A stretch of DNA of 61,352 nt from a virus: positions 1 through 61,352 of IMG/VR virus record IMGVR_UViG_3300009187_000027; one strand, given 5' to 3'. Shown piece after piece: positions 4,979 through 26,542 of this stretch (position 1 is the first letter of the stretch; every line of letters begins with the position of its first letter). The position numbers and the translations under genes were made by a program. Under the pieces are notes generated by a model. It did not search any database. It was not told the DNA's origin and saw nothing but the letters and a program-made list of their open reading frames with translations.

Positions 4979-5049
4979 TGCTAGACTCCACTGAACGCAT
5001 GTACATCTACATCTTTCTCTGACGGCGAGTGTTAAAAAGTTTTCCGCAC
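4979..5049. promoter_or_regulatory. Divergent control region between integrase and recombination operon
   Basis: Seventy-one bases separate the two divergent starts. They are richer in A+T than their surroundings and contain a short direct repeat, ACATCTACATCT (5002-5013), next to ATGTACAT. This is the likely site for both promoters and any operator. No clear -10/-35 pair could be assigned. Confidence 0.4.
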
Positions 5050-13456: not shown

Positions 13457-13848
13457 CGCATGGCCCTCCGCCTCTGGCGTTTCATCTCCATCCGCTGATC
13501 CCACCACTGGTCGTTGTCGTATCCGACGAACGCACCAGTTCTGGAGTCGATGTAGTAATCATCGAACTTCCACGCCGCCCTTCCCGCCGGGCCAAGCACA
13601 ACCTCCCTGCCGTCCAACTGCCCGGCCCAGTAGCCCGACCACGGGGTCGCCACCTCCTGCGGTGCCGAGTTCCACGGCAGGTCAGGGAACGGGACATCCA
13701 AGTCCCCGGCACATGCCGCACCGCCGAGCAGGCAGAGCAGCACCACGGGGATGCTATGCCGCGACTTGTGGCACAGCATGTAGTAGATCACGCCGTGCGA
13801 CAGAACCATCATCACGAACCAGCGAACGTCCTCAATGAACTCAGTCAT
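13453..13848 (-). CDS. Membrane or lipoprotein-like small protein
   Basis: A 131-residue product from ATG 13848 (GAGGTG six bases upstream). It has one hydrophobic stretch near residues 9-26 and a second ending in LLCLLGGAACAGD. The second would be a classical lipoprotein signal if translation began at an internal ATG (MLCHKSRHS). The mature part is Trp/Tyr/Pro-rich. Its stop overlaps the recombinase start. Two nested products are possible, but no spanin family match is evident. Confidence 0.58.
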   Translation of the reverse strand: MTEFIEDVRWFVMMVLSHGVIYYMLCHKSRHSIPVVLLCLLGGAACAGDLDVPFPDLPWNSAPQEVATPWSGYWAGQLDGREVVLGPAGRAAWKFDDYYIDSRTGAFVGYDNDQWWDQRMEMKRQRRRAMR

Positions 13849-13856
13849 CTCACACC

Positions 13857-14501
13857 TCATGCACTAGGGAGACCGCCGAACACGACGCTGCTACGAGCAG
13901 CATCGATCACCCAATCGACCGAGCCGAACTGCACCGCCCGATACTGCTGGCCCTGCCAGAAAACTGCGGGGCTGTGCATCAGCGACAAATCGAACATCAC
14001 GCAGTCACCGAGCCTGATCTCCCGTGGATCAGCGACGATGTCATCGGTCAGCGTCACGCCATCGGTCACTGGCTGGCGGACGCACAGCCACGGCTTCGCG
14101 AACGACGCGGCGTGGGAGCATCTGCGTTTGAGCAGGAACCCCCAGCACGGGACGATCATCGCACCGCCGACCACCTGCTTACCCTCTGTCGCGGCAGCCA
14201 TTGCGTAAGGCCACTCCGACCGCCAATCGTAGGGGTTCACCCGCCGCATGCCGACCTCCGTATCCACGCCCATCTGGCGTCGGAACCCGGTCATCGCGGA
14301 GTCCAACTGCATGGCGTGATCGATGACGATTGGACACCACGACGCCAGCACACCAGTTGCCTTGCGGTTGGTGACCGCAGCCTTGAGACCTTTCCGACCG
14401 AGCCTCCGCCAAATCCCCTCGACAGCCCCGGTCGTACCTACGATCTTCCGGTGCGTCTTATCGTAAGCCGCGACCAGTGATGGTCTGTCTATCCGCCGCA
14501 T
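13857..14501 (-). CDS. Hypothetical protein, 214 residues
   Basis: Not recognised. The start is ATG 14501, with GGAGG six to seven bases upstream, two bases after the VWA gene ends. The N-terminus is basic and helical (MRRIDRPSLVAAYDKTHRK). The second half is beta-rich with RLGDCVMFDLSLMHSPAVFWQGQQYR, resembling a small beta-barrel. It is probably co-translated with the VWA protein and might be an accessory of the MoxR-VWA pair. Confidence 0.6.
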   Translation of the reverse strand: MRRIDRPSLVAAYDKTHRKIVGTTGAVEGIWRRLGRKGLKAAVTNRKATGVLASWCPIVIDHAMQLDSAMTGFRRQMGVDTEVGMRRVNPYDWRSEWPYAMAAATEGKQVVGGAMIVPCWGFLLKRRCSHAASFAKPWLCVRQPVTDGVTLTDDIVADPREIRLGDCVMFDLSLMHSPAVFWQGQQYRAVQFGSVDWVIDAARSSVVFGGLPSA

Positions 14502-14502
14502 C

Positions 14503-16008
14503 TCAGCCTCCCCTCTTTGCGAGTTCACAAACCTGCATCCACGACGGGATCGGGTACGCCCCGTCCCGCTGCCTGACCAGAGCCACGATCACCCTCGACT
14601 TCAGCCGCTGCTTGGGATAGGGCGTGATGCCATCGGTGATCAGGATCATGCAGTCAGGCTTGAGTTCCCGCTCGCATGCCTCCAGCACCACGCCCATGTC
14701 GGTGCCGCCACCGTGGCCCACCTTCATCGCCTTCGCAGACCTCACGACATCGCGAGAGTGGACTCGCGTGTCGCCCTGCACCACGGTCACCTGTCCGAGA
14801 CGCTTCACCCCCTTCTCGATCACGCCGAGGGCACGGTCACGCAACTCGCTCTCATACCCGAGTTGCATCGAGCCCGAGGTATCCAGCACCACCACCGCAG
14901 ATGGCGTCTGCTTGACCACGCCACGCAGGCGAGGCCCGTCCTCCTGCTGGCGACGAGAGAGCCGCCGCAGGGTGAAGTCGGGCCTGCCCACCGGGCTCGC
15001 AACCGCACGGCAGATGCGGGACAGGAGCAGATCGAACGGGTCAACCTGCCGGGTGAACCGCAGGTCGAGAGCCTCGACCAGTTGGCTGGGGATCGAGCCG
15101 GGCGAGCCAGCCTCGATCTCCTTGATCTTCTCCGCCAAGTCCTTGTCGGCAGCCCACTCACGCTCATCGTCGGTGCCCGAGTCGGGCTCCTCCCATGAAC
15201 GAGGGATGCCGTCAGCACTGCTGCTGCCCGGCGGGTCTACGTCTGCCTCATTCCCGCCATCGTCAGGGCTATCTCCGCCCTCCGCTGCTGGCCCGCCCTT
15301 GCCACCGTCACCATCCTCCGCATCATCGTCACCGCCCGCTGATGAACCGTCGCCTTCATCGTCATCCTCATCGTCGCCCTCGCCGGGCTGCGAGTCGGCA
15401 TCGCCATCGCCGTCATCATCTTCGCTCGATTCCTCCTCGCTCTCGGAGGGAACACCTTCGCCATCCCCGTCTTCGTCCCCGTCCCCGGCATCGTCGGACT
15501 CGTCCTGCTCGCTATCGTCATCACCGTCTGCATCTGACTCGGACTGATCGTCATCGCTCTGCTCCTCATCGTTAGGCTGCTGACGCAGCAGTTCGTAGTA
15601 CTCGGTCGCTGACAGGTTCGAGGGGAACCCGTCATCCTCTGCCACCATCACGCCACTCGGTGCATCGCTGATCCACTTCTTGAGGATTCCATTCACGACA
15701 TAGTCGCAGGCCACATTCCAGAGCCGTGCATTCTCGGCGGTCGGCTTCTCGCCAAGCACCCGTCGAGCGATGCGGGCATGGCCCAGCACCACATGCAGCA
15801 CCTCATGCAGGATCACGAACGCACCTGCCGGGGTGCTGATGCGGTCGGCAAACGCCGGGTCGAAGTAGAGATTCCCCCGAGCGTCCACCGCCGCAGTGCC
15901 CAGCCCCTTCCTCTCGTAGGTGGGCATGCCGTAGACCCGAGCCGCGAGATACGGCAGGATCAAACGGGATGCGATCTTCCAAGCGGTCACCTTCTCACGC
16001 GGTTCCAT
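14503..16008 (-). CDS. Metallopeptidase-VWA fusion protein (DUF2201 type)
   Basis: A 501-residue protein in three parts. The N-terminal domain has a zinc-peptidase HEVLHVVLGH motif (His68, Glu69, His72). A very acidic Asp/Glu/Ser/Gly linker spans about 146-290. The C-terminal von Willebrand A domain has a MIDAS motif DTSGSM (Asp376, Ser378, Ser380) and GGTDMG further on. This is the DUF2201 arrangement, normally partnered with a MoxR AAA ATPase, which is the very next gene upstream. MoxR-VWA pairs act as metal-dependent chaperones or remodelling machines. ATG 16008 has AAGGAG six bases upstream. An in-frame upstream ATG at 16053 would translate the repeated GGCTGATTG element and is rejected. 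Confidence 0.85.
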   Translation of the reverse strand: MEPREKVTAWKIASRLILPYLAARVYGMPTYERKGLGTAAVDARGNLYFDPAFADRISTPAGAFVILHEVLHVVLGHARIARRVLGEKPTAENARLWNVACDYVVNGILKKWISDAPSGVMVAEDDGFPSNLSATEYYELLRQQPNDEEQSDDDQSESDADGDDDSEQDESDDAGDGDEDGDGEGVPSESEEESSEDDDGDGDADSQPGEGDDEDDDEGDGSSAGGDDDAEDGDGGKGGPAAEGGDSPDDGGNEADVDPPGSSSADGIPRSWEEPDSGTDDEREWAADKDLAEKIKEIEAGSPGSIPSQLVEALDLRFTRQVDPFDLLLSRICRAVASPVGRPDFTLRRLSRRQQEDGPRLRGVVKQTPSAVVVLDTSGSMQLGYESELRDRALGVIEKGVKRLGQVTVVQGDTRVHSRDVVRSAKAMKVGHGGGTDMGVVLEACERELKPDCMILITDGITPYPKQRLKSRVIVALVRQRDGAYPIPSWMQVCELAKRGG

Positions 16009-16040
16009 CGCAGTCTCCTTTCTGTTGGTTGTCGTTCCGA

Positions 16041-16055
16041 AACAATCAGCCAATC
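16041..16055 (-). repeat. GGCTGATTG element, copy 1
   Basis: GATTGGCTGATTGTT on the minus strand. Its TGA is the stop codon of the MoxR gene. It lies 33 bases before the VWA start. See copies 2-10. Confidence 0.8.
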
Positions 16056-17173
16056 GTCGTTCGCTTCTTCAGTTCGATCAGCGGCTTGAGGGCGGCAGCC
16101 TTGGGGGCGTAGCCCTTCTCGCTGGCGATCCGCTGGAGTTCCCCGGTGTGGCGGAGTGCCAGTTCGGGGGACGCCCTCTCACCCACGGTGGCGAGGAACT
16201 TCGCCGCCGCATCCCATCGGTCGGGGCTGAAGTCCCTGCCCGAGAGGGTCGCCATCACCGCACCCGTCACGGTGATCGTCCGGTCGGGACGAGCCGGGTC
16301 GTGGGCGAACGTGACGAAGCCGTCGAGCAGGTCAACGGGGTTGACCAGATCGTTGGCAGCCCGCCATGTCACGAACTGAAGCGTGGCGTTGTCGCCAACG
16401 CAGCCCTCGACCATCGACCGCACCATCTTGCTGCCGACCGTCATGTCGCAGCCGCATGCATCGGCGGCGGCGAGGCAGCGGACAGCGTTCGACCACGACC
16501 GTTCAGTGGGGTACGCCCACTGCGAGTCATCCTCTGGAACAACGGAGTCGAGGTTGTCCGACGCCGTCAGGAAGTCAGCGAGCAGGCCACCCCACCGCTC
16601 GACGCAGCCGCTCTGATCCCAGTTGGTGGGCAGGGTCGGGAACACGGGGTCTTCCCACTTGAGGGTGCGGAGACCAGACAGCCACGCCTTCCTATCCTTC
16701 TGCCACTGGGCGTGGAAGAACCTGTTCACCGTGGGCAGGGACAGCGGCTGCCCGTTGGGCGTGATCGCCGCCGGGTTGGTCGCCGCGATCACCACCGTAT
16801 CCCTCGACAAGTGGAAGTCACCGACCCGCAGGTCTTGAATCAGCGTGAGGAACGCTGCCTGCACGGCAGGTGCGACCGCACACAGTTCATCGAGGAAGAG
16901 CAGGCCACCCGGAGTGAACAGAGCCTCCGCCCAGCCCATCGGCAGCATTCGGCAGAGACCCTTCGCGTTGTCGGGCACCGGCAGACCGCCGATGTCCTCC
17001 GGGGAACACTGCGTCCCGAGCAGCGTGACGAACCGACGCTTCAGCGAGCGGGCCATCGCGTTGATGGTTGCCGTCTTGCCCGCACCCGGCGGGCCGACGA
17101 GCAGGACGGGGACGCCCGCCATCGCAGCGATGAGGGCGGGAAGCATCGGGTGATCGAACACAATCGCAAACAT
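16046..17173 (-). CDS. MoxR-type AAA+ ATPase
   Basis: A 375-residue AAA+ protein. Walker A GPPGAGKT is at 27-34, Walker B LLFLDE at 91-96 and a sensor-1-like VVIAATNP soon after (about 121-128). The arrangement fits MoxR/RavA ATPases, which energise VWA partners such as the downstream DUF2201-type protein. ATG 17173 has AGGAG eight bases upstream. A longer frame to 17230 reads through the leader hairpin and is rejected. The stop codon sits within the GGCTGATTG element. A remodelling role in capsid, replication or host takeover cannot be chosen from sequence. Confidence 0.87.
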   Translation of the reverse strand: MFAIVFDHPMLPALIAAMAGVPVLLVGPPGAGKTATINAMARSLKRRFVTLLGTQCSPEDIGGLPVPDNAKGLCRMLPMGWAEALFTPGGLLFLDELCAVAPAVQAAFLTLIQDLRVGDFHLSRDTVVIAATNPAAITPNGQPLSLPTVNRFFHAQWQKDRKAWLSGLRTLKWEDPVFPTLPTNWDQSGCVERWGGLLADFLTASDNLDSVVPEDDSQWAYPTERSWSNAVRCLAAADACGCDMTVGSKMVRSMVEGCVGDNATLQFVTWRAANDLVNPVDLLDGFVTFAHDPARPDRTITVTGAVMATLSGRDFSPDRWDAAAKFLATVGERASPELALRHTGELQRIASEKGYAPKAAALKPLIELKKRTTIG

Positions 17174-17205
17174 GTGAGAGACTCCTGTGGGAACCATCGA
17201 ACCCA

Positions 17206-17228
17206 GCGGGGAGGAACACCCTCCCCGC
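17206..17228 (-). promoter_or_regulatory. Leader hairpin before MoxR gene
   Basis: A perfect nine-base stem (GCGGGGAGG with CCTCCCCGC) closes a five-base loop, GTGTT on the minus strand. It follows GGCTGATTG copy 2 and precedes the MoxR start by about 30 bases. There is no U tract, so a terminator is unlikely. The loop differs from the GCGTT loops of the other leaders. Confidence 0.6.
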
Positions 17229-17230
17229 AA

Positions 17231-17245
17231 AACAATCAGCCAATC
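17231..17245 (-). repeat. GGCTGATTG element, copy 2
   Basis: GATTGGCTGATTGTT, six bases beyond the stop of the upstream gene (17252) and just before the leader hairpin of the MoxR gene. Confidence 0.8.
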
Positions 17246-17251
17246 GCCAGA

Positions 17252-18118
17252 TCAGGCGGAGATATCCGCCAGTTCCAGCATCGCGAACTTCGTGTCGAGT
17301 GCCTCGACCACCATCGCGACCTCATGCAGACCGACGCCGAACATCTGCTGGTAGGCAGCGATCTTCTGCTTCGCGTTCTCGATGTCATCCTTCCTGCGGG
17401 CGATGCCGCCCTTGGTCATGTCGTGACCGGCGAGCAGGTCAGCCTCCAGTTCCGACCGCATCGCAGCGACCTCCGCCGTGAACGCCCGCACCGCCTCGCG
17501 AGCGATGTCGGGGTTGTCCAGCAGCGGGAACCGGGCCACCGACAGACGCACCTCCGAGTCGGGGTTCGCTGGCCCCTCCTCGATCTGCCTTGCCAGATCG
17601 GTGAACGTCTGGAGCAGACCACCAGCGAGGAAGTACACGCCGCCGCCGTCACGCAGCGACGTTGCCGACCACGCCTTGGTCATGGCCCTGACGAGCAGGC
17701 TGCCCACGGTGGACGCCTCGTAGTAGTCGAGCCGATCCCGGTAGATCGTCTCGATCTCCTGACCACCCGTGATGGGCAGGCCCGCGAAGGTGACCGAGAC
17801 CCGGTCGCTGGCGTCCGCCTTGACCGTGAACTGGTAGTCGTGGGTGTTGCTCTCGACCCCCTTGGTCTCACGCAGCACCTCGAAACCCAGCACCGCCCGG
17901 TCGAGCGGCACGATCTCCCACCTCGACCTCTTCCCCGCCTTGCCGAGGTGCTGCCTGATCGCACGACCGAGGGCCATCGCCCTCTTCTCCCGGCGGGGCA
18001 GCAACTTGCTGAGACCGAGGGACATGAACGCCCGGTCGAACACCGTCTTGCGGCAGCGACCGCTGTTCAGAACGACGAGAGCCCCATCGGCGGACGGGGG
18101 GATGGAAAAAGAACGCAT
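17252..18118 (-). CDS. Hypothetical protein, 288 residues
   Basis: Not recognised. ATG 18118 has AAGGAG seven bases upstream. The N-terminal 200 residues are mixed alpha/beta with several Arg/Lys clusters. Residues of about 205-275 form long helices (AVRAFTAEVAAMRSELEADL and DDIENAKQKIAAYQQMFG) likely to form a coiled coil. It sits just upstream of the MoxR gene in the same operon and might be a substrate or adaptor of that ATPase. Confidence 0.68.
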   Translation of the reverse strand: MRSFSIPPSADGALVVLNSGRCRKTVFDRAFMSLGLSKLLPRREKRAMALGRAIRQHLGKAGKRSRWEIVPLDRAVLGFEVLRETKGVESNTHDYQFTVKADASDRVSVTFAGLPITGGQEIETIYRDRLDYYEASTVGSLLVRAMTKAWSATSLRDGGGVYFLAGGLLQTFTDLARQIEEGPANPDSEVRLSVARFPLLDNPDIAREAVRAFTAEVAAMRSELEADLLAGHDMTKGGIARRKDDIENAKQKIAAYQQMFGVGLHEVAMVVEALDTKFAMLELADISA

Positions 18119-18170
18119 GGGAAAACTCCTTGATGGAGGTGAAGAAAACAAAGGCATCACGCGATGCCAA

Positions 18171-18202
18171 TAAAAAAGGGACGCACCACAACGGTGCATC
18201 CC
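18171..18202 (-). terminator. Rho-independent terminator
   Basis: GGGATGCACC and GGTGCGTCCC pair around GTTGT on the minus strand and are followed by six T residues, a standard intrinsic terminator inside the operon. It lies only a few bases after the -10-like hexamer of the promoter-like element at 18203-18227, so the two may form an attenuator or insulated start. Confidence 0.75.
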
Positions 18203-18227
18203 AGTGTCCAACACAGGTCAACAGATC
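18203..18227 (-). promoter_or_regulatory. GATCTGTTGACCT element, copy 3
   Basis: GATCTGTTGACCT, then six bases, then GACACT on the minus strand, directly upstream of an intrinsic terminator and directly downstream of GGCTGATTG copy 3. Confidence 0.5.
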
Positions 18228-18233
18228 GATCCG

Positions 18234-18249
18234 AATCAATCAGCCAATC
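18234..18249 (-). repeat. GGCTGATTG element, copy 3
   Basis: GATTGGCTGATTGATT. Its left edge shares bases with the stop codon of the gene ending at 18248. It is followed by TTCGGA, as in copies 1 and 4. Confidence 0.8.
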
Positions 18250-18772
18250 AGCAACTCGGCAGTGCCGAGAACACTGCACTCGCCGCGATGTCCTTGCCCT
18301 GCCGCTGAACCGAGCGGAGGGTGGAGCCCCGGCAGAAATTCGACTGCCTCTCCCCGCACTCATCGACCCGAGAGAGGTACTTCACGAACACGGTCTTCAC
18401 CTTCACGCCCTTGACCGCTCGCTCCATGACACGCATCTCCACGGTGCGGATGGTGCCACAGCCCTCGATCACCTCGACCTCGATCACCCTGCCGCCGAGG
18501 CCCACGCCACGAATGTCTGCCCGCCAGCAGAGCATGTGCCACTCGGGCTGGTCGTGCATGCAACGCACGGTGTAGGTGGCACCCATGATCGCCCTCTTCC
18601 AGCCGATGCGACCGAACTTCTTCCAGCCCTCCTCAGTGGAGAGGCTGGCCTCGCATCGCGACAGCAACTTGGTGCGGGTCACGGCGAACTTCGTGCCCCC
18701 ATACCAGTGGAAACCGCCCATGTTTGGGCTCGTCGTGATCCACCACCTCGACTTGTCTCGCGTCTTGCCCAT
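18248..18772 (-). CDS. Hypothetical protein, 174 residues
   Basis: Not recognised. It is rich in Trp, Lys and Arg, with five or more cysteines and beta-type strands. KTRDKSRWWITTSPN opens the protein. GGRVIEVEVIEGCGTIRTVEMRV forms a likely beta hairpin near the middle. ATG 18772 (or GTG 18775) follows the upstream stop without a gap, with GGGGAGG upstream, so it is coupled to its neighbour. It could be a small nucleic-acid-binding beta protein. Confidence 0.62.
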   Translation of the reverse strand: MGKTRDKSRWWITTSPNMGGFHWYGGTKFAVTRTKLLSRCEASLSTEEGWKKFGRIGWKRAIMGATYTVRCMHDQPEWHMLCWRADIRGVGLGGRVIEVEVIEGCGTIRTVEMRVMERAVKGVKVKTVFVKYLSRVDECGERQSNFCRGSTLRSVQRQGKDIAASAVFSALPSC

Positions 18773-18774
18773 CA

Positions 18775-19179
18775 CTAGCCCTCCCCGGATGTGTCAATGG
18801 TCACGTTGCCGAACTTCAATTGCCCGTCCTCGCTCTCGCTGACAAAAGGGAACGGGATGTCCACGATCTGCCCCAGTTTCTTGACCTTGGCCTTCGTCTT
18901 TCGGTCAAGGTGCGAAGCCTTGACGCAGCCGATGGTTCCAGAGTCAACGCTGTACTCCCGACCCTCGTTGTCCTCGTAGATCCCGTCGCCATACGCGGTG
19001 CCGTGATAGGCCACCTCGATGCCGCCCTTCAGAACGAACCTGCCCTCAAAACATTTGTTTCGATTGGGCCCGGTTCGGATTGGGTACATGAGTTTCAGCA
19101 ACTCGTCCCACTGTGCGTCGGTCAGCACATAGCACAGATCACCGACGTAGTACCTTCCTTCAGGCATTCGCTCGCTCAT
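18775..19179 (-). CDS. Small beta-rich phage protein
   Basis: A 134-residue protein with YYVGDLCYVLTDAQWDELLK near the start, a pattern (GD.CYV....W) found in small phage and bacterial proteins of unknown role. VAYHGTAYGDGIYEDNEGREY in the middle and SGTIGCV further on complete it. ATG 19179 has GGAGG eight bases upstream, preceded by a GCGTT-loop hairpin in the leader. It overlaps the next gene start closely. Confidence 0.68.
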   Translation of the reverse strand: MSERMPEGRYYVGDLCYVLTDAQWDELLKLMYPIRTGPNRNKCFEGRFVLKGGIEVAYHGTAYGDGIYEDNEGREYSVDSGTIGCVKASHLDRKTKAKVKKLGQIVDIPFPFVSESEDGQLKFGNVTIDTSGEG

Positions 19180-19199
19180 CTCGTTGTCCTCCAGAAACA

Positions 19200-19239
19200 C
19201 AGCGACCCCGGTCAGGTAACGCACCTGCCGGGGTCGCTG
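19200..19239 (-). promoter_or_regulatory. GCGTT-loop leader hairpin A
   Basis: A perfect 12-bp stem (CAGCGACCCCGG with CCGGGGTCGCTG) plus an inner CAGGT/ACCTG stem closes a loop reading GCGTT on the minus strand. It is followed by TGTTTC and GGAGG, then the ATG at 19179. Three other leaders share the loop and the GTTTC tail but not the stem bases. Confidence 0.75.
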
Positions 19240-19255
19240 TTGGTTGTGTCTTCCG

Positions 19256-19271
19256 AATCAATCAGCCAATC
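19256..19271 (-). repeat. GGCTGATTG element, copy 4
   Basis: GATTGGCTGATTGATT, overlapping the stop codon of the gene ending at 19270 and leading into hairpin A. Confidence 0.8.
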
Positions 19272-19506
19272 ATGCGATGCCGACGATCTCCATCGCCCGC
19301 TCCGCATGGTCTCTCTCGCACCACGCTACCGCCTCCGCCTTGGTCTTGACCAGCGGCGGGTAGATCGCCTTGTTGCCCTCATGCCTCGCCGCCTGCCAGC
19401 CCTTGAAGGGGGCCGGTCGGAGGGCATAGGTCACGCCACCTCCAGCATCCGCCTCCCACCAGCGTCGATCCGAGCCGATGTAGTACCGCCGCCTCCAACT
19501 CAGCAT
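19270..19506 (-). CDS. Hypothetical protein, 78 residues
   Basis: A small basic protein with several Trp and Tyr residues (WRRRYYIGSDRRWWEADAGG). It ends in a short amphipathic helix, KTKAEAVAWCERDHAERAM. ATG 19506 overlaps the stop of the upstream gene, with GGGAGG upstream. No family was recognised. Confidence 0.6.
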   Translation of the reverse strand: MLSWRRRYYIGSDRRWWEADAGGGVTYALRPAPFKGWQAARHEGNKAIYPPLVKTKAEAVAWCERDHAERAMEIVGIA

Positions 19507-19859
19507 CACTCACCTCCCTTCACGATGGAGTCCACCTCGTCGGTCATCGAACGCAGTAGGGTGCGGGCAGCGTCAGCCACCTCGCGGTGCCGCTCGTAGT
19601 CCCGCTCGATGCAGTCGGTCACCCGCTCAACGAGCCAGTGAACCCAGCGATCCCCGTTGCAAAGTTGCACTTGCCGGTGCAACTCACGCAGCATGGCGAT
19701 CAGCGGGTTCTTGCCAACGAACCCGTCCTCCCGCATCCACTGGCGGATTGCATCAATCTGCCGGTACACGCCGACTTCTGTGAACGCCTCAGTCTTCGTC
19801 CACTTCACGAACCTCTCGACCATCGCATCGCTAACGTCATACGTTGAACGCTTCGCCAT
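19506..19859 (-). CDS. Hypothetical protein, 117 residues
   Basis: Mostly helical and charged, with DVSDAMVERFVKWTKTEAF near the start and RWVHWLVERVTDCIERDYER in the second half. ATG 19859 follows an AAAGGA sequence. It is translationally coupled to the 78-residue gene. No family was recognised. Confidence 0.6.
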   Translation of the reverse strand: MAKRSTYDVSDAMVERFVKWTKTEAFTEVGVYRQIDAIRQWMREDGFVGKNPLIAMLRELHRQVQLCNGDRWVHWLVERVTDCIERDYERHREVADAARTLLRSMTDEVDSIVKGGE

Positions 19860-19896
19860 TGCATCATCCTTTCCTGTTGGGGTTGAATCGATCCAG

Positions 19897-19911
19897 AACA
19901 ATCAGCCAATC
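19897..19911 (-). repeat. GGCTGATTG element, copy 5
   Basis: GATTGGCTGATTGTT followed by CTGGATCGATTC. It overlaps the last bases of the stop codon of the gene ending at 19910. Confidence 0.8.
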
Positions 19912-20497
19912 ACGAACGCTTTGCCTCCAGCACCACCCACTTCTGTGCCGCATCTTCCAGCGACATTGCGAAGTAGTTCTCGCCACGCAGCACGACCTGT
20001 TCCAGCACCCGCCCCGCCTCATCGCAGGTGGCGGCGACGATCTCGTTGAACTCAGCCAACGATTCGACGCTGCCGAGGCACAACTTCAGGTTGAGCGTCT
20101 GGCCCATCAGCGGAAGGGCATCCATCAGATCACCGAAACTGTCATCGCCCCGGTCGAATGAGAACCGAGCCTTCTCGCAGGCGGCGTATGCCTTGCGCGT
20201 GTAGTGCGACCACGACAGGGCGAAGTGAACCGCCGCCGCGAAATCGCCACCACCCACCACGGCACACCTGAAGAACTCGTCCGCCGCCGCCTCAACGTAG
20301 CCCTCCTTCCGATGCGTCATCGTGTCGAGCAGCACCTCGCGGAACCGCACGACCACATGCCAGAAGTGTTCCGGCTGCATGGGAGGGACGCCACGCTTGA
20401 AGTCCATGAAATTCTCATCGAACTCAGACCGGGCATCGCTGAACGCCTTGGCCTGCTTCATGATCTTGCTGGTCAGGATGCTCGTTGCTTTCGTCAT
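19910..20497 (-). CDS. Hypothetical helical protein, 195 residues
   Basis: ATG 20497 has AAAGGAG seven bases upstream. The protein is predicted all-helical with many aromatic residues (HFWHVVVRFREVLLDTMTH and FAAAVHFALSWSHYTRKAY). An acidic FDRGDDSFGDLMDALP lies in the middle. No motif gives a function. The leader includes CTCC/GGAG, which could fold over the ribosome site. Confidence 0.65.
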   Translation of the reverse strand: MTKATSILTSKIMKQAKAFSDARSEFDENFMDFKRGVPPMQPEHFWHVVVRFREVLLDTMTHRKEGYVEAAADEFFRCAVVGGGDFAAAVHFALSWSHYTRKAYAACEKARFSFDRGDDSFGDLMDALPLMGQTLNLKLCLGSVESLAEFNEIVAATCDEAGRVLEQVVLRGENYFAMSLEDAAQKWVVLEAKRS

Positions 20498-20535
20498 CGT
20501 CAGTCTCCTTTGGAGGGTGTGAATCGAACCCGTCA

Positions 20536-20550
20536 AACCAATCAGCCACG
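20536..20550 (-). repeat. GGCTGATTG element, copy 6
   Basis: CGTGGCTGATTGGTT. The central TGA is the stop codon of the methyltransferase-like gene, as in copy 1. Confidence 0.75.
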
Positions 20551-21105
20551 CGGACGGCAGTCCCGAAACATCCAGACCGGGGAGGACTTGGTGCCGCCCA
20601 CCTTCATCGCACTGTGCATGGGCACGCCGAGCGCGCTGCGGCACAGTTCGTACACCTCGTAGTCGCTGCCCGCGTGGTGGCGTGGGCTGGACGGGTGATT
20701 GAGGATCACCATGCCGCCGTCACGCACGGCACGTCCGATCTGTTTGAGCGTTTCACGCATCATCGCCACCGAAGACTGCACGTTCATCACGTTCGATGCG
20801 AAGACGAGGTCGTACTCACCGGGGTGGATGATCAGCCCCGTGTAGTTCTTGCCGAAGTCGTACTCGTGAACCTTCGCCTCGGGGTGAGCCTTGCGGATCA
20901 TCTCCGAATGCAGGAAGTGCCCGTCCTTCCCCGGCTTCCCGGCACCGAAGTTGAGGATGTTGTGGAACCCGATGCGGTTGCCGACAGAATCGGCGTGTAG
21001 CAGGTCGATCACGACACGGGGGACAAGAGCGCGGGCACCAACGGCACCAGCACTACGGGCAGTGGCATTGGCACGAGCGATGTAGTCGAGGGTCATCGAT
21101 TTCAT
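20542..21105 (-). CDS. SAM-dependent methyltransferase-like protein
   Basis: A 187-residue class I methyltransferase-like fold. NILNFGAGKPG (about residues 49-59) stands for motif I. An acidic end of strand 2 is followed by YDLVFASNVMNV (about 97-108) and GGMVILNHPSSPR (about 129-141). The Asn-Pro-type turn in the last segment is a weak substitute for the NPPY/DPPY of base methylases. The N-terminal 45 residues are helical. ATG 21105 has GGAGG seven bases upstream, preceded by a GCGTT-loop hairpin. The substrate is unknown and could be a small molecule, protein or nucleic acid. Confidence 0.68.
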   Translation of the reverse strand: MKSMTLDYIARANATARSAGAVGARALVPRVVIDLLHADSVGNRIGFHNILNFGAGKPGKDGHFLHSEMIRKAHPEAKVHEYDFGKNYTGLIIHPGEYDLVFASNVMNVQSSVAMMRETLKQIGRAVRDGGMVILNHPSSPRHHAGSDYEVYELCRSALGVPMHSAMKVGGTKSSPVWMFRDCRPRG

Positions 21106-21123
21106 TGGGGAGCCTCCGAAAAC

Positions 21124-21164
21124 GCAGCGACCCCGGCGGGAAACGCTCCAGCCGGGGCCGCTGC
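21124..21164 (-). promoter_or_regulatory. GCGTT-loop leader hairpin B
   Basis: A 14-bp stem with one mismatch (GCAGCGACCCCGGC with GCCGGGGCCGCTGC) encloses a short inner GGA/TCC stem and the loop GCGTT. GTTTTC and GGAGG follow before ATG 21105. Confidence 0.75.
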
Positions 21165-21176
21165 AATGGGTGTTCA

Positions 21177-21192
21177 GATCAATCAGCCGATC
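21177..21192 (-). repeat. GGCTGATTG element, copy 7
   Basis: GATCGGCTGATTGATC, overlapping the stop of the membrane-protein gene ending at 21191 and preceding hairpin B. Confidence 0.78.
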
Positions 21193-21670
21193 AGTCGCTG
21201 ATCACCACCGAGGTGACCTCGCATGCCACCATCCCTGCGTCGATGCCGAGGGCCAGCAGCACAGCCACCGCTGCATGGCACCCCGTTAAGGCGGCGATTG
21301 CCTCGTAGCAGTGGGCAATCGAGAGCATCAGCACAGCCACGCCGATGGCCCCGGTGATGCGAGCGAGGCTGTAGTGCCGCCGCCGATGGGTCAGCCCCGC
21401 CACCTTGCCCAGCAGCAGGACGAGCAGCGGGATGACGGCACCCAGCACGACCGCCGCCCACTGCAAACCCTCCGGGGCATGCCGCGATCCCGCCCACGCA
21501 TTCAGTGCCATCGACAGCACCGCCGAAACGGTGACGTAGAGCAGGCACCAGCGGGCCAGACCGTCACGCCGCCGGATGGTGGTGCGGGGGGGCTGCGTCT
21601 TCCGACGCCGAGACTTCTTCTCGGTGGTGACGGTGGTGACGGTGGGAATCCTGTTGATCGTGTCGATCAT
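21191..21670 (-). CDS. Four-span membrane protein
   Basis: A 159-residue protein. A Thr/Lys/Arg-rich cytoplasmic N-terminus of about 40 residues is followed by four hydrophobic segments, near residues 42-60, 68-92, 100-123 and 131-155. The layout of short loops and a basic head recalls DUF2637-like membrane proteins of phages and mobile elements, but the match is loose. ATG 21670 has AGGAGG eight bases upstream, with hairpin C in the leader. It might anchor phage proteins to the membrane or affect the host envelope. Confidence 0.68.
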   Translation of the reverse strand: MIDTINRIPTVTTVTTEKKSRRRKTQPPRTTIRRRDGLARWCLLYVTVSAVLSMALNAWAGSRHAPEGLQWAAVVLGAVIPLLVLLLGKVAGLTHRRRHYSLARITGAIGVAVLMLSIAHCYEAIAALTGCHAAVAVLLALGIDAGMVACEVTSVVISD

Positions 21671-21693
21671 GTGGTGAACCTCCTGAAACGCGA

Positions 21694-21727
21694 CAGGCCA
21701 CGAACTGGAACGCCCAGCCGTGGCCTG
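21694..21727 (-). promoter_or_regulatory. GCGTT-loop leader hairpin C
   Basis: CAGGCCACG pairs with CGTGGCCTG, with an inner CTGG/CCAG stem around the loop GCGTT. GCGTTTC and GGAGG follow before ATG 21670. Confidence 0.75.
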
Positions 21728-21745
21728 CCGCAGTGTGTGTGTCCG

Positions 21746-21761
21746 AACCAATCAGCCGAAC
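21746..21761 (-). repeat. GGCTGATTG element, copy 8
   Basis: GTTCGGCTGATTGGTT, three bases beyond the stop of the GP88-like gene, followed by CGGAC and hairpin C. Confidence 0.75.
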
Positions 21762-21764
21762 GGA

Positions 21765-22742
21765 TCAATGGCAGCCGATAGCCACCACTCCGGGGAAGAC
21801 GAACGTGCCATCGGCTTTCTTCGCACCGCATGCATGGGCGTTCTCGCCCTTGTGCGTCACGCAGGCACCGCACTTGCCCGAGCAGGACAATGCCCGCTCG
21901 TAGCCCAGAGCCCGAGCGGCTTCACGCACCGCCCGGTGATACTCAGGATCGTCGTAGCGGTCGTAGCCCTTGGCCTTCCGCATGAACTTCTTGTCGATGT
22001 ACACCGACAGAAACCGCTCACGGGTCACGGGCAGACCGAGCATCTTCTCCATGAATTCGGCATCGCCGTCGTAGATCGATCCGCTCGACACGTTTAGAAC
22101 GTAGTTGTCGGGGAACGCGGCACCCGTGGCATGCCAATCCATGAACAGCCCCCACGACTTGGAGTACCCGTAGCACAGAACGTCGGGCCGCTGGCGGAGC
22201 ATGTTCCACCAGAATTGCATGGTCGAGAGGGAATCGAAATCGCCGTCAACGTACAGCCGGAACGTGATGTCCACGGGCAGCACCTTGAATGCGTCGATGA
22301 TCGCCCGCCGATTGAACCGCAGCAGCAGGGTATTCATGAGTTGCCGCAGATAGCCGCCGGGCGTCCGCCATGCTTTCTTGGAGTAGCACCACTTGGCACA
22401 ATCGCCCGCACCTGGGCATGTGACGATGGGCAACGCCGAGAACGCCACGAACGGCAATTTCATGTTGCCATGCATGGCGAAGATGGCGAACGGCAGACCG
22501 CCGTCCCGCATGCACTGGACGAACCGCAGCATCTCTTCACGCCATCCCCGAGGGGTAGCGGAACCGGCACGGCGGGCAGCCTTGCGATTCCTCTTCTTCT
22601 GCGATGCACCGGGCAGTGTGATCGGCAGAGTGAGAGCGACAGCCTCGATGCATGCCAGTGCATCATCGAGCGTTTCAGCCCGCATGCACTGCCATGCCAG
22701 ATCGAGGGCACGTTGATTCGAGAACTTGGGAGCGTAGCCCAT
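21765..22742 (-). CDS. GP88-like Cys-rich phage protein
   Basis: A 325-residue protein. TCPGAGDCAKWCYSKKAW (Cys109, Cys115, Cys119) is followed by LYVDGDFDSLSTMQFWWNML and YGYSKSW. A C-terminal cluster CSGKCGACVTHKG has further cysteines. This order matches the GP88 family first noted in mycobacteriophages, whose proteins look like metal or iron-sulfur proteins of unknown reaction. A radical-SAM-like barrel has been a natural suggestion but is not proven here. ATG 22742 is preferred over 22754 because the upstream GGAGG lies inside the longer version. A leader hairpin with a GCGTT loop precedes it. Confidence 0.72.
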   Translation of the reverse strand: MGYAPKFSNQRALDLAWQCMRAETLDDALACIEAVALTLPITLPGASQKKRNRKAARRAGSATPRGWREEMLRFVQCMRDGGLPFAIFAMHGNMKLPFVAFSALPIVTCPGAGDCAKWCYSKKAWRTPGGYLRQLMNTLLLRFNRRAIIDAFKVLPVDITFRLYVDGDFDSLSTMQFWWNMLRQRPDVLCYGYSKSWGLFMDWHATGAAFPDNYVLNVSSGSIYDGDAEFMEKMLGLPVTRERFLSVYIDKKFMRKAKGYDRYDDPEYHRAVREAARALGYERALSCSGKCGACVTHKGENAHACGAKKADGTFVFPGVVAIGCH

Positions 22743-22760
22743 GTGAGCCTCCATGAAACG

Positions 22761-22803
22761 CGACAGCCCGCAGCATGGAAACGCTCCACGCTGCGGGCTG
22801 TCG
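22761..22803 (-). promoter_or_regulatory. GCGTT-loop leader hairpin D
   Basis: A perfect 14-bp stem (CGACAGCCCGCAGC with GCTGCGGGCTGTCG) and an inner TGGA/TCCA stem close the loop GCGTT. GCGTTTC overlaps the stem end, and GGAGG follows before ATG 22742. Confidence 0.8.
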
Positions 22804-22813
22804 GGGTGTGCAA

Positions 22814-22828
22814 AACAATCAGCCGAAT
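22814..22828 (-). repeat. GGCTGATTG element, copy 9
   Basis: ATTCGGCTGATTGTT, seven bases beyond the stop of the gene ending at 22836 and before hairpin D. Confidence 0.78.
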
Positions 22829-22835
22829 GAACGAA

Positions 22836-23162
22836 TCAGCGGGGGCGGGCAACGACCTCATGCCCGCCGCGATTCACCTCGATCATGCCGCCCTCGGCGG
22901 CGGCATCGCAGAGGGCGTCGAGGCAGCCCAAGGAGATGATCTTGTCGGTGTAGTCCTCGCCGCCCCTGCAATACTTCATCGAAGCATGCTGTTCCCCGAC
23001 GGCGAGACTGCGGAGCGTCGGAGACACACAATGCTCGATCACATCGTCGCTCCACGTTCCACTCCAATGCTGTTGAATGTGGTCGAGCAGTTGGGAGAGG
23101 TTGCAGACGTATCGGCGGACGCTGTGGGTCTGATGCTCAACGGTGACGAGAAGGAATCGCAT
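22836..23162 (-). CDS. Hypothetical protein, 108 residues
   Basis: The first certain gene of the long minus-strand operon. It opens with beta strands (MRFLLVTVEHQTHSVRRYV). A helix NLSQLLDHIQQHWS follows, and the end is DALCDAAAEGGMIEVNRGGHE. ATG 23162 has AGGAG nine bases upstream and copy 10 of the GGCTGATTG element further upstream. No family was recognised. Confidence 0.65.
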   Translation of the reverse strand: MRFLLVTVEHQTHSVRRYVCNLSQLLDHIQQHWSGTWSDDVIEHCVSPTLRSLAVGEQHASMKYCRGGEDYTDKIISLGCLDALCDAAAEGGMIEVNRGGHEVVARPR

Positions 23163-23199
23163 GGTGGTGTTCTCCTGTTTGGGTGTTTGGGTCTCACAG

Positions 23200-23214
23200 A
23201 ACAATCAGCCAATC
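23200..23214 (-). repeat. GGCTGATTG element, copy 10
   Basis: GATTGGCTGATTGTT followed by CTGTGAGACC, 37 bases before ATG 23162. No certain gene ends here, which suggests that the element belongs to the following gene rather than to the preceding stop. Confidence 0.8.
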
Positions 23215-23687
23215 CCAAAAGCCCACTAGGCTTGTCGCATGCTGCGACGGTCTTGCCATAAACCTTGTGCGGGGTCGTGGTGACACGGGCCGCGATGGCT
23301 GGTCGAAAATGGATGACGGTTTGGGTCTTCGCTGGGACATAAACCAAGCGAGAGACTTTGGGATCGCGGTACGCACATTCGGCCCCGCGTTCCGTTGCGG
23401 TCGTGCGGAAGTCCTTGCCCCGCCGCGAGTTGCGTCCGACCCCCGGCCCGGCCCCCCGCCGCATCGGCCCCCATATAACGCTCGCCCTCGCTATTTTTCC
23501 CCAAAAAACCTCATCGCCGCAGCGCATCTAAACCAAGCCCTCTCGCTGCCCGCCAAAAGCCCGATTGCTGAACAGGCGTTCACTTACCCTCCCCAGACCT
23601 GAACGCCCGTCTAATCGCATCCTAGAGCCTCACAGAGGCATGCCCGTCTTCGCCACCCTCTCTCCACAACATTGGCATGGAGGAGAC
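23215..23687. promoter_or_regulatory. Divergent control region between the two central operons
   Basis: These 473 bases separate the long minus-strand operon from the plus-strand ssb operon. A minus-strand frame at 23039-23527 crosses them, but it reads through GGCTGATTG copy 10 and overlaps the next gene by 124 bases, so it is not accepted. There is an A+T-rich stretch at 23488-23512 and TATAAC near 23475, suitable for a minus-strand promoter. An inverted repeat (GGCGTTC and GAACGCC, 23575-23607) also lies here. No origin-type iterons were seen. Confidence 0.45.
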
Positions 23688-23753
23688 ATGGAGTACGCAG
23701 AAGAGTGGGACGAGCAGGACGATGCCCTCAGTGAACTCATCGAGTTCCTCTGA
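23688..23753 (+). CDS. 21-residue acidic leader peptide
   Basis: A very short frame with an excellent ribosome site (GGAGGAG, ending two to three bases before the ATG). It is dominated by Glu and Asp with a leucine-rich helical end. It overlaps the start of the next frame in another phase. It may be a true microprotein or serve translational coupling. Confidence 0.4.
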   Translation: MEYAEEWDEQDDALSELIEFL

Positions 23754-24159
23754 GCCGCTTGATCGCGACCGTCGCTACTTCGGAGACCCGTATGACCTCT
23801 TCACCGGCAGCCAGCCGTTCGGTGACCCCAACGCATGGCTCCCAGAGTCGGTGGACGCCAAGTCGCACTCGTTGCTCTATCCGCTGGGCATGGGCTGGTC
23901 GGAGTTCCGCCCTCCTGTGATCGAGCCCGCAGCCCCTGCGGAGCCGTCGAGCATTTCCCTTGCCATCTTCGCCATCGCCATCCTCTGGCTCATGGCTGTG
24001 CGTGATTTCATCCTCGCAAGAATTTTTGACCGTCGATCTGTTGACCTCACTCGTAGGCTGGGTGAGAACGGGACGCGAGAGCCCGTGACACCCAGAGGAG
24101 AGAGCAATGATCGAGGCGACAGTGGTCGGCAACGTGGGCCAGAAGCCCGAACTTCGTGA
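23722..24159 (+). CDS. Hypothetical protein with one membrane span
   Basis: From ATG 23722, which overlaps the leader peptide, the protein has 145 residues. It comprises a polar serine-rich start, FGDPYDLFTGSQPFGDPNAW, a transmembrane helix (about residues 75-97, SLAIFAIAILWLMAVRDF) and a basic tail. The tail overlaps ssb by 53 bases and contains the GATCTGTTGACCT element in its DNA. The start is not certain (23677 is possible). The function is unknown. Confidence 0.5.
   Translation: MPSVNSSSSSEPLDRDRRYFGDPYDLFTGSQPFGDPNAWLPESVDAKSHSLLYPLGMGWSEFRPPVIEPAAPAEPSSISLAIFAIAILWLMAVRDFILARIFDRRSVDLTRRLGENGTREPVTPRGESNDRGDSGRQRGPEARTS
24035..24059 (+). promoter_or_regulatory. GATCTGTTGACCT element, copy 4 (ssb promoter candidate)
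   Basis: GATCTGTTGACCT at 24035-24047 and TAGGCT at 24054-24059, about 48 bases before the ssb start codon. Of the four copies this is the one best placed to be a promoter. Confidence 0.55.
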
Positions 24160-24478
24160 GACCAAGACCGGGAAGGTGATGTGCCGGTTCTCGGTGGCAT
24201 CGACCTACAAGTCCAAGCAGGGGGAAGAGGGCACCACAACGTGGGTCTCTGTCCTCTGCTTCGATGAGATGGCTGCCGAGGTGGCTGCCAAGGCTGACAA
24301 GGGCCAGCGTGTCGTGGTGACCGGCAGGCTGGAACTGGAGAAGTACGAAAAGGATGGCGTCGAGCGGCAGTCGCTGACGATGCTCGCCAACGAGGTCGGG
24401 CTCTCGCTGCGGTTCCCGCCGCGTGGTGCCAAGCCGAAGAACGCTGATCCCGAGGCGGAGTGGACTTCGCCCTTCTAG
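24107..24478 (+). CDS. ssb: Single-stranded DNA-binding protein
   Basis: A 123-residue OB-fold protein. MIEATVVGNVGQKPELRET opens it, then RFSVAST, TTTWVSVLCFDEMAAEV and KGQRVVVTGRLELEKYE follow in the order typical of bacterial SSBs. The C-terminus is a short acidic tail ending TSPF, similar to the DDxxPF tip that recruits partner proteins. It binds single-stranded DNA during replication and ERF/RecE-type recombination. AGAGGAG precedes the ATG at normal distance, and a promoter-like element lies 48 bases upstream. Confidence 0.93.
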   Translation: MIEATVVGNVGQKPELRETKTGKVMCRFSVASTYKSKQGEEGTTTWVSVLCFDEMAAEVAAKADKGQRVVVTGRLELEKYEKDGVERQSLTMLANEVGLSLRFPPRGAKPKNADPEAEWTSPF

Positions 24479-24501
24479 GACTCCTGTGGGGGAGGTGAGC
24501 C

Positions 24502-24750
24502 GTGCGTCAGAAGGAACTGACCTTTTTGAGGACTTTGCTCAAGCAGCCCTCATGCGGCATAGACGCCGACACGGCTCGCCTCCTTTGCCTTCTCGGTGCC
24601 TCAGTGGTTTTGGGCACCAACGCGATCCCCATGTGGTTAGAGGTCTCGATTGAGCGGCACATCCGAGGATTCGATGCGGCGGGAGATAGAGCGTCTCCGC
24701 AAGGAAGTCGAGAGACTGAGGGAACTTCTACGAAAGGCTGGCTGGCCTGA
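24502..24750 (+). CDS. Hypothetical protein, 82 residues
   Basis: A GTG start with GGGGAGG upstream. The first 55 residues look genuine: a helical KELTFLRTLLKQPS, a hydrophobic ARLLCLLGASVVLGTNAIP and WLEVSIERHI. The last 25 residues are low-complexity and overlap another frame encoding a strong heptad helix (24674-24757). An indel might therefore have separated the two halves of one protein. Confidence 0.55.
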   Translation: MRQKELTFLRTLLKQPSCGIDADTARLLCLLGASVVLGTNAIPMWLEVSIERHIRGFDAAGDRASPQGSRETEGTSTKGWLA

Positions 24751-24757
24751 TGTTTGA
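24674..24757 (+). CDS. 27-residue coiled-coil microprotein
   Basis: This short frame has GAGG six bases before the ATG. It reads as a near-perfect amphipathic heptad helix (IERLRKEVERLRELLRKAG) before ending. Such regularity is unlikely by chance. It lies +1 relative to the 82-residue frame and overlaps the next gene start by eight bases. It may be a real microprotein or the true C-terminus of its neighbour after a frameshift. Confidence 0.45.
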   Translation: MRREIERLRKEVERLRELLRKAGWPDV

Positions 24758-25223
24758 CGAGATCAAGGAAGACCTCGCTGAATTGAACCCGTTTGCCCTG
24801 CTGGCTGTGGGTCTTGAGGACGCCCTGATCGGCTACACCCTCAACCACCACGACCCGATTCGGGCGGTCTACGACTACAACAAGTGCCTCCGAGTCCTGA
24901 TGGAGCGGGACGGCATGGACGCGGAGGGTGCCGATGAGTTCCTCTCGTTCAACACCCTTGGTGCCTTTGTCGGCACCGATGGCCCGCTGTACGTCCGACT
25001 GCCCGACCTTGAGGAAGAGGTTAAGAGGCTCACCGACGAGGAGCGTGAGGCTGTGGATATTGCGTGTATGAATCTTGCGGAGACAGTCCGCAGGGGGCGA
25101 CAGAAGCAGGACGAGTACATGCAAGAGGGAGATTTGGAGGGGGGCAAGTGGACAGAGAAGGGTGTAGTTTCTCTGGTTCAAGCCCGCGACACGCTCCGCT
25201 CGCTGCTGGAGAGGCTGAAATGA
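24750..25223 (+). CDS. Hypothetical protein, 157 residues
   Basis: The ATG shares a base with the preceding stop. The N-terminal half reads PFALLAVGLEDALIGYTLNH and PIRAVYDYNKCLRVLMERDGM, a pattern frequent in phage proteins of unknown role. An acidic helical tail (LPDLEEEVKRLTDEEREAVD) follows. It is translated together with the next gene through an ATGA overlap. Confidence 0.7.
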   Translation: MFDEIKEDLAELNPFALLAVGLEDALIGYTLNHHDPIRAVYDYNKCLRVLMERDGMDAEGADEFLSFNTLGAFVGTDGPLYVRLPDLEEEVKRLTDEEREAVDIACMNLAETVRRGRQKQDEYMQEGDLEGGKWTEKGVVSLVQARDTLRSLLERLK

Positions 25224-25651
25224 GTGAACCCGTAGAACATGCCGCAGGCACAGACATCACCGCCCGCCTCACCACATGGTGCCACGCTCCACAGGCGGCG
25301 TCGGCTCAAGACATCATGGACGAGGCGGCGAGGGAGATTGAGCGGCTGCGCTGCGTTACAAAACCTCTGCCAAAAGAAATTTGGGCAGAGCATTCGTTAC
25401 ACCCCACCGACGAGGAGCGGCGAGTCCTGCGCGATCTGCGAGACAGTTACGCCGCCGAAGACGATCAGGAGTGCAACCGGATCGCGTCGGTGCTGCACGG
25501 GCTTCTGGAGAGGCTGAACTGCCGAGAGAACTTCGGTAGTTCGCCACACCTCTCCGAGCGTGACCGGGACTTACTCCGGTTCGCCGCCAACACCATCGGG
25601 GATGCTGACTGCTCAGAACTCTTCCGCAGGCTGCTGCGGGTTCTTGGTTAG
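25220..25651 (+). CDS. Hypothetical protein, 143 residues
   Basis: The start codon overlaps the preceding stop. It contains DITARLTTWCHAPQAASAQDI and MDEAAREIERLR, a short motif common in phage early proteins. Charged helices follow (EERRVLRDLRDSYAAEDDQE). No enzyme motif is seen. Its 3' end overlaps the convergent minus-strand gene by 39 bases. Confidence 0.65.
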   Translation: MSEPVEHAAGTDITARLTTWCHAPQAASAQDIMDEAAREIERLRCVTKPLPKEIWAEHSLHPTDEERRVLRDLRDSYAAEDDQECNRIASVLHGLLERLNCRENFGSSPHLSERDRDLLRFAANTIGDADCSELFRRLLRVLG

Positions 25652-26542
25652 CCCCGACAAAGCACCCGCCGCCATGACCGATGGCACCTGAACCCCACGC
25701 CTGAAGAGAACCTCTTTGAGTTGGTCGGGAAGGGAGTTGTACATCCGGTACGCCAGCAGGCTCATGGTTGGCTGGTAGCCGGTGTTCTGGAGTCTCTGCA
25801 ACCCAGCGACCCGATACCAGTTCCACGCCCGAGCAAATTCCTCTGGCGTCTTGGGGAGCCTGCCCATCTCAAGGGCGTACACCCGGCGAACCTCTGCGAG
25901 CCGTGGATCGACCTCCTGCCGCTCAAACAGGTAGTCGGTCAGTTCCTTCTGGCCCTTGCCGTACTTTCTGCCCTTCCCAGAAAGTGGAATGTTCGCGGCT
26001 GCGGCTCTCCGAGCCTCAGTGTTGATGTCGCCCACGCCCCACGGCGGCACTGAAGCCTCCAACTGCTTCAGCGGATCACTCAGGAGGCCAGCATGCGTGG
26101 ATTCGTGCCCAATCGTCATGGGGCTGTCTGGGTTGACCACATCGTGGTTCAAGACGATCCGCTTACCACCGTTAGGCATCCTGTCGTAGTGAGCGACAGT
26201 CGTGGGCTCTAGGGGATCGCTGAATCGATAGTCGGAGATCACCCGAATCGGTGCGTCAGCGTCCGACTGCGAAAACGCCCCGTACCTGTCGTTCACCCCG
26301 TACTGACCGGGGAGCCCCTTTTGGCGGATATTGTCCACGCTTGCATCAATGGCGGCATCTACGCCGCCGTCGATGTTGGCGTACCACGGGGCAATGGCTT
26401 GCCGAAACGTGGTCACTGGGGCTTCGCCTTGCCCCGCAGCCTTGAGGGCTTTCCGAACGACATCGAGGGGTTGAGAGAAGTCCCCTTCGATGACATCCAG
26501 CGGCTGGGCTAGGTTGCGGACGGCACGATCAATAACCCCCAT
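25613..26542 (-). CDS. Virion-like protein with HESTH motif
   Basis: A 309-residue protein with GHESTHAGLL near residue 145, an HExxH zinc-peptidase motif. Nearby KRIVLNHDVVNPDSP gives the strand that usually precedes it. The C-terminal third is helical and Arg-rich. It is coupled to the upstream 463-residue gene (14-base overlap). The composition resembles the large internal virion proteins, so an injected or structural zinc enzyme is plausible. No third zinc ligand can be fixed with confidence. Confidence 0.68.
   Translation of the reverse strand: MGVIDRAVRNLAQPLDVIEGDFSQPLDVVRKALKAAGQGEAPVTTFRQAIAPWYANIDGGVDAAIDASVDNIRQKGLPGQYGVNDRYGAFSQSDADAPIRVISDYRFSDPLEPTTVAHYDRMPNGGKRIVLNHDVVNPDSPMTIGHESTHAGLLSDPLKQLEASVPPWGVGDINTEARRAAAANIPLSGKGRKYGKGQKELTDYLFERQEVDPRLAEVRRVYALEMGRLPKTPEEFARAWNWYRVAGLQRLQNTGYQPTMSLLAYRMYNSLPDQLKEVLFRRGVQVPSVMAAGALSGLTKNPQQPAEEF

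Follow-up and report, generated by a model that had tools for sequence, protein, structure and literature searches.

In this work we describe a repeated leader cassette in the genome of an uncultured phage, recorded in IMG/VR as IMGVR_UViG_3300009187_000027; the whole stretch analysed, positions 1 to 61,352 of that record (61,352 nucleotides), is referred to here as the window. The cassette recurs in a minus-strand operon of about a dozen genes that extends from ~23.2 kb down to ~12.7 kb of the window, and it consists of an oriented 18-bp box, a short CA-rich stretch, a covarying hairpin with the loop GCGUU, the bases UUUC, a Shine-Dalgarno (SD) sequence and the start codon. The hairpin is a conserved RNA fold in the mRNA, supported by covariation, and leaders made of box, hairpin and ribosome-binding site (RBS) have been kept while the genes behind them were exchanged. 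Three long records of uncultured phages carry the same operon with the same hairpins (G006, 62.6 kb; G010, 57.5 kb; G011, 61.5 kb), and in a fourth relative (G013, 62.8 kb) the operon is present with a different box.

A conserved RNA fold in the operon leaders

All four leader hairpins listed in a preliminary description of this sequence are present, on the minus strand and with the loop GCGTT in 4/4. They have stems of 17-20 bp, constrained folds of -35.9 to -40.7 kcal/mol, and are followed by (Y)GTTTC or GTTTTC, GGAGG and the start codon. The type D hairpin (22761-22803; 19 bp) ends 18 nt upstream of the GP88 start codon (ATG), from which it is separated by the tail CGTTTCAT, the SD sequence GGAGG and a spacer (22743-22760), and it has orthologues at the GP88-position genes of G006, G010 and G011. 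Type C (21689-21732) is spaced 18 nt from the ATG that opens the gene 21191-21670, with the tail TTTCA (GTTTCA-GGAGG) and spacer at 21671-21688, and a related hairpin leads an unrelated DUF6744-like gene in G010 and G011. Type B (21124-21164) is likewise 18 nt upstream of its gene, a methyltransferase-like one with the start codon ATG, and has the tail GTTTTC, GGAGG and a spacer at 21106-21123; in G006, G010 and G011, hairpins 79-86% identical to it lead an unrelated gene. For type A (19199-19240), the distance to the ATG of the gene 18775-19179 is 19 nt, with the tail GTTTCT (TGTTTC-T-GGAGG) and spacer at 19180-19198, and 84-86% identical hairpins lead other first genes in the same three relatives. 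The positions first given for the hairpins are roughly correct, except that the third interval, 21694-21727, needs a few more bases on either side.

Pairing was analysed on 15 aligned hairpin copies from four phages, namely the 4 of the window and 11 in G006, G010 and G011. RNAalifold returned the same stem, with changes on both sides in 13 of its 16 pairs, and in the assigned 18-pair structure both sides changed with pairing kept at 14/18 positions, 91.9% of all cells being paired. None of 500 shuffles reached the covariation values of this set. Since the copies are kin, shuffles alone could mislead, a weakness from which two further observations are free: pairing dropped to 41-52% when the structure was slid along the alignment, and double changes occur inside orthologous hairpins, such as A-T to C-G and G-C to A-T within type A. 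The double changes of type C are partly a register slip in one row, and the within-type argument thus rests on types A, B and D. In the coding-sense fold there is a single A-C mismatch as against 17 G-U pairs, and in 13/15 copies it is the sense strand that folds more stably; the G-U pairs identify the folded molecule as the mRNA. The covariation first noted on four leaders is therefore borne out and now extends over 15 copies.

The covariance search proposed in the preliminary description as a trial of the fold was also run. Over 795 kb, the model recovered the 15 copies, those of G006, G010 and G011 included, together with one more leader hairpin of G006, whose loop is altered, and hardly anything beyond weaker opposite-strand matches on the same hairpins, so that the claim withstood it. 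Rfam covariance models gave no match near the gathering score in window positions 13000-24500. The corresponding leaders of G013 form hairpins with the loops TCGTT and, in one possible fold, ACGTT, keeping CGTT. The preference for the loop itself is visible in counts from the window and G006, where 7 hairpins below -25 kcal/mol have the loop GCGTT and the remaining 29 orderings of the same five letters yield 0-3 each.

The distance to the gene is likewise constrained, the stem ending 16-21 nt before the start codon in 13/15 copies; the exceptions are the DUF6744-like leaders, at 63 nt or more. A strict loop-to-RBS pattern search had no match because the spacing varies. Two elements absent from the preliminary description belong to the same series of leaders: a related hairpin with the loop GTGTT in the leader of a MoxR-like ATPase gene (17206-17228, minus strand; constrained fold -22.9 kcal/mol), and a U-tract terminator that occupies the hairpin position in the DUF6744-like leader (18178-18202, minus strand; stem of 11, TTTTTT).

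The upstream box and its joint change between relatives

The third element added here is the 18-bp box, GATYGGCTGATTGTTYYGGA, which lies directly upstream of each GCGTT hairpin of the window and occurs in hairpin-less leaders as well. A weight matrix found exactly ten box sites in the 61-kb window, all on the minus strand and all ahead of genes of this operon, with scores of 23.6-31.6 bits; the next best site scored 10.7, and shuffled sequences would be expected to hold 0.7 copies of the box 9-mer. The sites begin with the apparent first gene of the operon, 22836-23162, whose leader has the box (GATTGGCTGATTGTTCTGT; 23196-23214, 29.6 bits) and no hairpin. They continue ahead of the hairpins of type D (22810-22828, 25.9 bits), type C (21743-21761, 26.1 bits) and type B (21174-21192, 28.3 bits), of the genes 19910-20497 (20533-20551, 23.6 bits) and 19506-19859 (19893-19911, 31.0 bits), both without a hairpin, and of the type A hairpin (19253-19271, 31.1 bits). 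The last three precede the terminator and DUF6744-like gene (18231-18249, 31.1 bits), the GTGTT hairpin and ATPase gene, where the last bases of the box overlap the stem (17227-17245, 31.6 bits), and the hairpin-less von Willebrand factor A (VWA)/metallopeptidase gene (16037-16055, 31.6 bits). Where a leader lacks a hairpin, 28-37 nt separate the end of the box from the start codon (11/13 cases), and where it has a GCGTT hairpin the stem starts within about 20 nt of the box.

The gene presumed to be first in the operon is preceded by a box in all four phages. The box of G011 is nearly that of the window, whereas the core reads GGCTTGTAG in G010 and GGCTAGTAG in G006; the type B leaders of these three phages have the hairpin and no recognisable box. 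G013 has a different box (GTTCGGCAGGTG), followed by the TCGTT- or ACGTT-loop hairpins and an RBS, and this box is possibly a diverged form of the same one. At record positions 18830, 20656, 23253 and 25340 of G013 (L206, L205), GGCTCGTTCGGCAGGTG or a close variant holds the same leader positions, with hairpins after it. G006 also has one complete copy of its own box (28.7 bits) away from any leader, within the coding region of an HNH-like gene (L138:4324-4342).

G010 and G011 share ~97% identity across much of the operon, and at their six homologous leaders the four box-core bases differ in 16/24 positions, as compared to 5/84 for the other box bases. At 5/6 of these leaders the core passes from a TTGTAG type to a TGAT type (TGTG at the ATPase gene), with the neighbouring DNA mostly unchanged. 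Such a concerted change across leaders is what a sequence-specific trans-acting factor would be expected to produce, and it indicates that the box is probably read by one. A candidate partner is a phage factor of the sigma-70 family, encoded on the plus strand at the end of the convergent operon (12211-12768; Pfam Sigma70_r4_2, 4e-9), with region 2-like and region 4 segments. Its identity to the window protein is 50-59% in G006, G010 and G011 and 34% in G013. The factor is conserved in every relative that carries this part of the genome.

Leader retention, gene exchange and the phage lineage

By sequence, the hairpins fall into four types, with 86% identity within and 71% between types. In all the phages, type D is found ahead of the GP88-position gene. 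Behind type A, the first gene is a different one in each of the four: the hairpins are 84-100% alike and the first genes have no blastp match to one another. For types B and C, the gene that follows in the window is not the one that follows in the relatives. Between G010 and G011, an island of 81 bp composed of box, type A hairpin and RBS is retained with non-homologous sequence on both flanks, other edges of homology also fall at leaders, and in G011 an extra gene is inserted right behind the RBS of the type A leader. Selection for intact genes would in part lead one to expect breaks at gene boundaries; the retained island is the stronger argument that box-hairpin-RBS leaders were kept while the genes behind them were exchanged.

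The operon encodes, in order, a protein of unknown function, a GP88-family protein, a protein with no family match, a methyltransferase-like protein, several unknowns, the DUF6744-like protein, the MoxR-like ATPase, the metallopeptidase/VWA protein and a serine recombinase. Regarding the genes behind the four window hairpins, the earlier assignment to GP88 is supported (Pfam PF17338, 4e-18; the gene led by type D), the supposed membrane protein has no family match, the methyltransferase match is weak (0.0012, below the Pfam cut-off), and the unknown corresponds to phrog_20074, whose function is unknown. The metallopeptidase/VWA protein (14503-16008, minus strand) has a long acidic low-complexity insert and adjoins the ATPase, a pair conserved in the relatives. 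The serine recombinase, with a resolvase domain, is encoded at 12677-13507 and a tyrosine integrase at 4145-5089, both on the minus strand of this phage.

The relatives were reached through terminase (TerL) and major capsid protein (MCP) queries; the ATPase by itself led to no viral relative and, as an alignment, to G006 as the sole one. The INPHARED phage collection held no match to the capsid protein or to the type B leader. A 55-kb contig of a metagenome-assembled genome (MAG) of Pirellulaceae has a capsid gene 60% identical, and in a second Planctomycetota genome a distant capsid gene sits on a contig no shorter than 125 kb. These capsid relatives (L209, JAGYIQ010000016.1, and L217) are the only host lead for the lineage, and a planctomycete host is therefore possible, as a lead and not as a result. 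The hairpin model, run against 199 genomes of the family of the Pirellulaceae MAG, gave two weak matches in unrelated contexts, judged to be due to chance.

Possible modes of action and relation to known systems

We hypothesize, with roughly even confidence, that the cassette joins a phage-specific promoter or operator, the box, to an element of the 5' untranslated region, the hairpin. Most likely the box, as a promoter or as an operator inside one, would drive each gene or short gene group through a trans-acting factor. Placed at the transcript's 5' end or close to it, the hairpin would stabilise the mRNA and shield the RBS, which starts just past the stem, from pairing with upstream sequence. 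The fixed loop suggests recognition, and a protein or RNA may also read it. Because the cassettes share sequence, recombination within or beside them would allow genes to be exchanged, each newcomer falling under control that is already in place. One box of G013 has a T6 terminator immediately upstream and a hairpin with its gene downstream, a place where a promoter should lie.

Several observations weigh against this hypothesis. No sigma-70-type promoter site was found in window positions 16000-26000 (0 sites), and no -35-like conserved block is present upstream of the box. In the DUF6744-like leader a terminator or hairpin stands between box and gene, 60-70 nt before the start codon, which is an odd place for a promoter. 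Predicted SD accessibility gains slightly, and no more, with the hairpin when compared to a shuffled hairpin. The sigma factor was also considered as the sole reader of the box and found no support: between G010 and G011, whose boxes differ, there is almost no change in its region 2 and region 4 segments, and it therefore does not obviously explain box specificity.

A further possibility, which we hold tentatively, is that the leader acts as a two-part label, with one phage factor reading the box and a second one reading the GCGUU loop. Under such an arrangement slots would be inherited while genes turn over, and the code of the label could be switched lineage-wide, as G010 and G011 may illustrate.

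The preliminary description proposed protein- or RNA-mediated translational control. In such a scheme, a phage protein or small RNA bound to the GCGUU loop and stem would block or promote ribosome binding 16-21 nt downstream, as the coat and replicase-control proteins of other phages do. The conserved fold right before the RBS and the fixed loop, suggestive of recognition, uphold part of that proposal: the loop is invariant over variable stems, CGTT is kept in the TCGTT and ACGTT loops of G013, and in 13/15 copies the stem ends at the edge of the ribosome footprint. The control step itself fares less well. The SD sequence is outside the hairpin and no alternative fold pairing with it is evident, other leaders of the operon have the box with no hairpin or with hairpins of other loops 28-43 nt from the start, and no binding protein was identified; we regard such control as unlikely. 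An SD-sequestration switch likewise found no support in the accessibility calculations.

Equally doubtful is a role of the box as a stoperator-like operator, at which a prophage repressor would block elongation through the operon, with the hairpin as a separate intercistronic element. The stoperators of cluster A mycobacteriophages, to which the phage repressor binds, are oriented with transcription, short and intergenic, spread genome-wide, and change sequence coherently between close relatives. The boxes share with them the asymmetry, the single orientation with transcription, the short intergenic sites and the joint change between related phages, and this phage has an integrase. However, the boxes are restricted to one operon, tied to start codons (near-fixed at 28-37 nt where no hairpin intervenes) and to hairpins, no repressor was identified, and the L5-type stoperator consensus gave weak scattered matches only, none at the leaders.

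Termination or antitermination is improbable. Here the hairpin and its UUU would be a weak intergenic attenuator and the box a nut-like or put-like signal. TTT follows the stem directly in 14/15 copies, the U6 terminator of the window's DUF6744-like leader has as its counterpart in G010 and G011 a GCGTT hairpin at the same place, and a linear box with a pentaloop hairpin behind it is reminiscent of boxA-boxB of the lambda nut site. Nevertheless, the U-runs are of 2-4 as compared to at least 6 in the terminators of the same phages, the stems of 17-20 bp exceed those of usual terminators, and the hairpin abuts the RBS. The boxB loops of lambda are purine-rich, which GCGUU is not, and the ten boxes and their position at start codons set the cassette further apart from nut. 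Lastly, intercistronic processing sites of the RNase III type, like those of the T7 early region, would account for near-perfect 17-20 bp duplexes at the gene junctions of one operon, but duplex cutting leaves the invariant loop and the box unexplained, and this reading is very improbable.

Among described systems, the cassette resembles the promoter-early stem-loops (PeSLs) of T4-type phages and the extended start-associated sequences (ESAS) of cluster K mycobacteriophages, and belongs to neither. A PeSL is a sigma70-like early promoter joined to a terminator stem-loop. According to PMC4503421, which cites Arbiol (2010) and Comeau (2014), PeSLs are likewise cassettes of a promoter-like element and a stem-loop, present in many copies in a plastic region where recombination shuffles genes. 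Breakpoints at cassettes are found here too, in the G010/G011 edges and the 81-bp island. In contrast to PeSLs, the cassette has no sigma70 promoter match and no long U-tract: its stems are followed by T-runs of 2-4, versus 6 at 18178, and do not match the usual form of an intrinsic terminator, a GC-rich stem with a U-tract behind it. Moreover, its hairpin abuts the RBS, its loop is invariant, and it belongs to an uncultured lineage with genomes of ~60 kb. In the haloarchaeal virus HGTV-1, a promoter-like box and an inverted repeat precede most genes of one genome arm, an arrangement that its authors compare to PeSLs; that box is TATA-like and archaeal, and the inverted repeat is not known to have been tested for covariation (PMC3950731).

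The start-associated sequence (SAS) of cluster K mycobacteriophages is a repeat located by the RBS, with an inverted repeat just upstream of about half the copies; the site sequence varies between subclusters and serves non-structural genes only (PMC3203893). The cassette is similar in being a repeated leader motif near the RBS with an inverted repeat. ESAS consists of a conserved 17-bp inverted-repeat sequence around a variable spacer of 4-13 bp, and those who described it consider an mRNA hairpin poorly supported (PMC3203893). The cassette is the reverse, with a variable, compensated stem in place of the conserved repeat and an invariant loop; its departures are compensated, and it thus differs from ESAS on the exact point used by those authors against an mRNA hairpin. 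The 13-bp SAS, GGGATAGGAGCCC, had one match with 2 mismatches in the 61 kb, with 2 expected by chance.

Taken together, these findings define a clear, testable phage leader cassette whose stem-loop has the covariation support at the RNA level that is explicitly lacking for ESAS. The major capsid protein of this lineage has no match among 50,697 phage records. In these phages conservation is higher in the leaders than in the genes behind them, and the joint change of a whole set of sites between close relatives points to a regulator that reads them.

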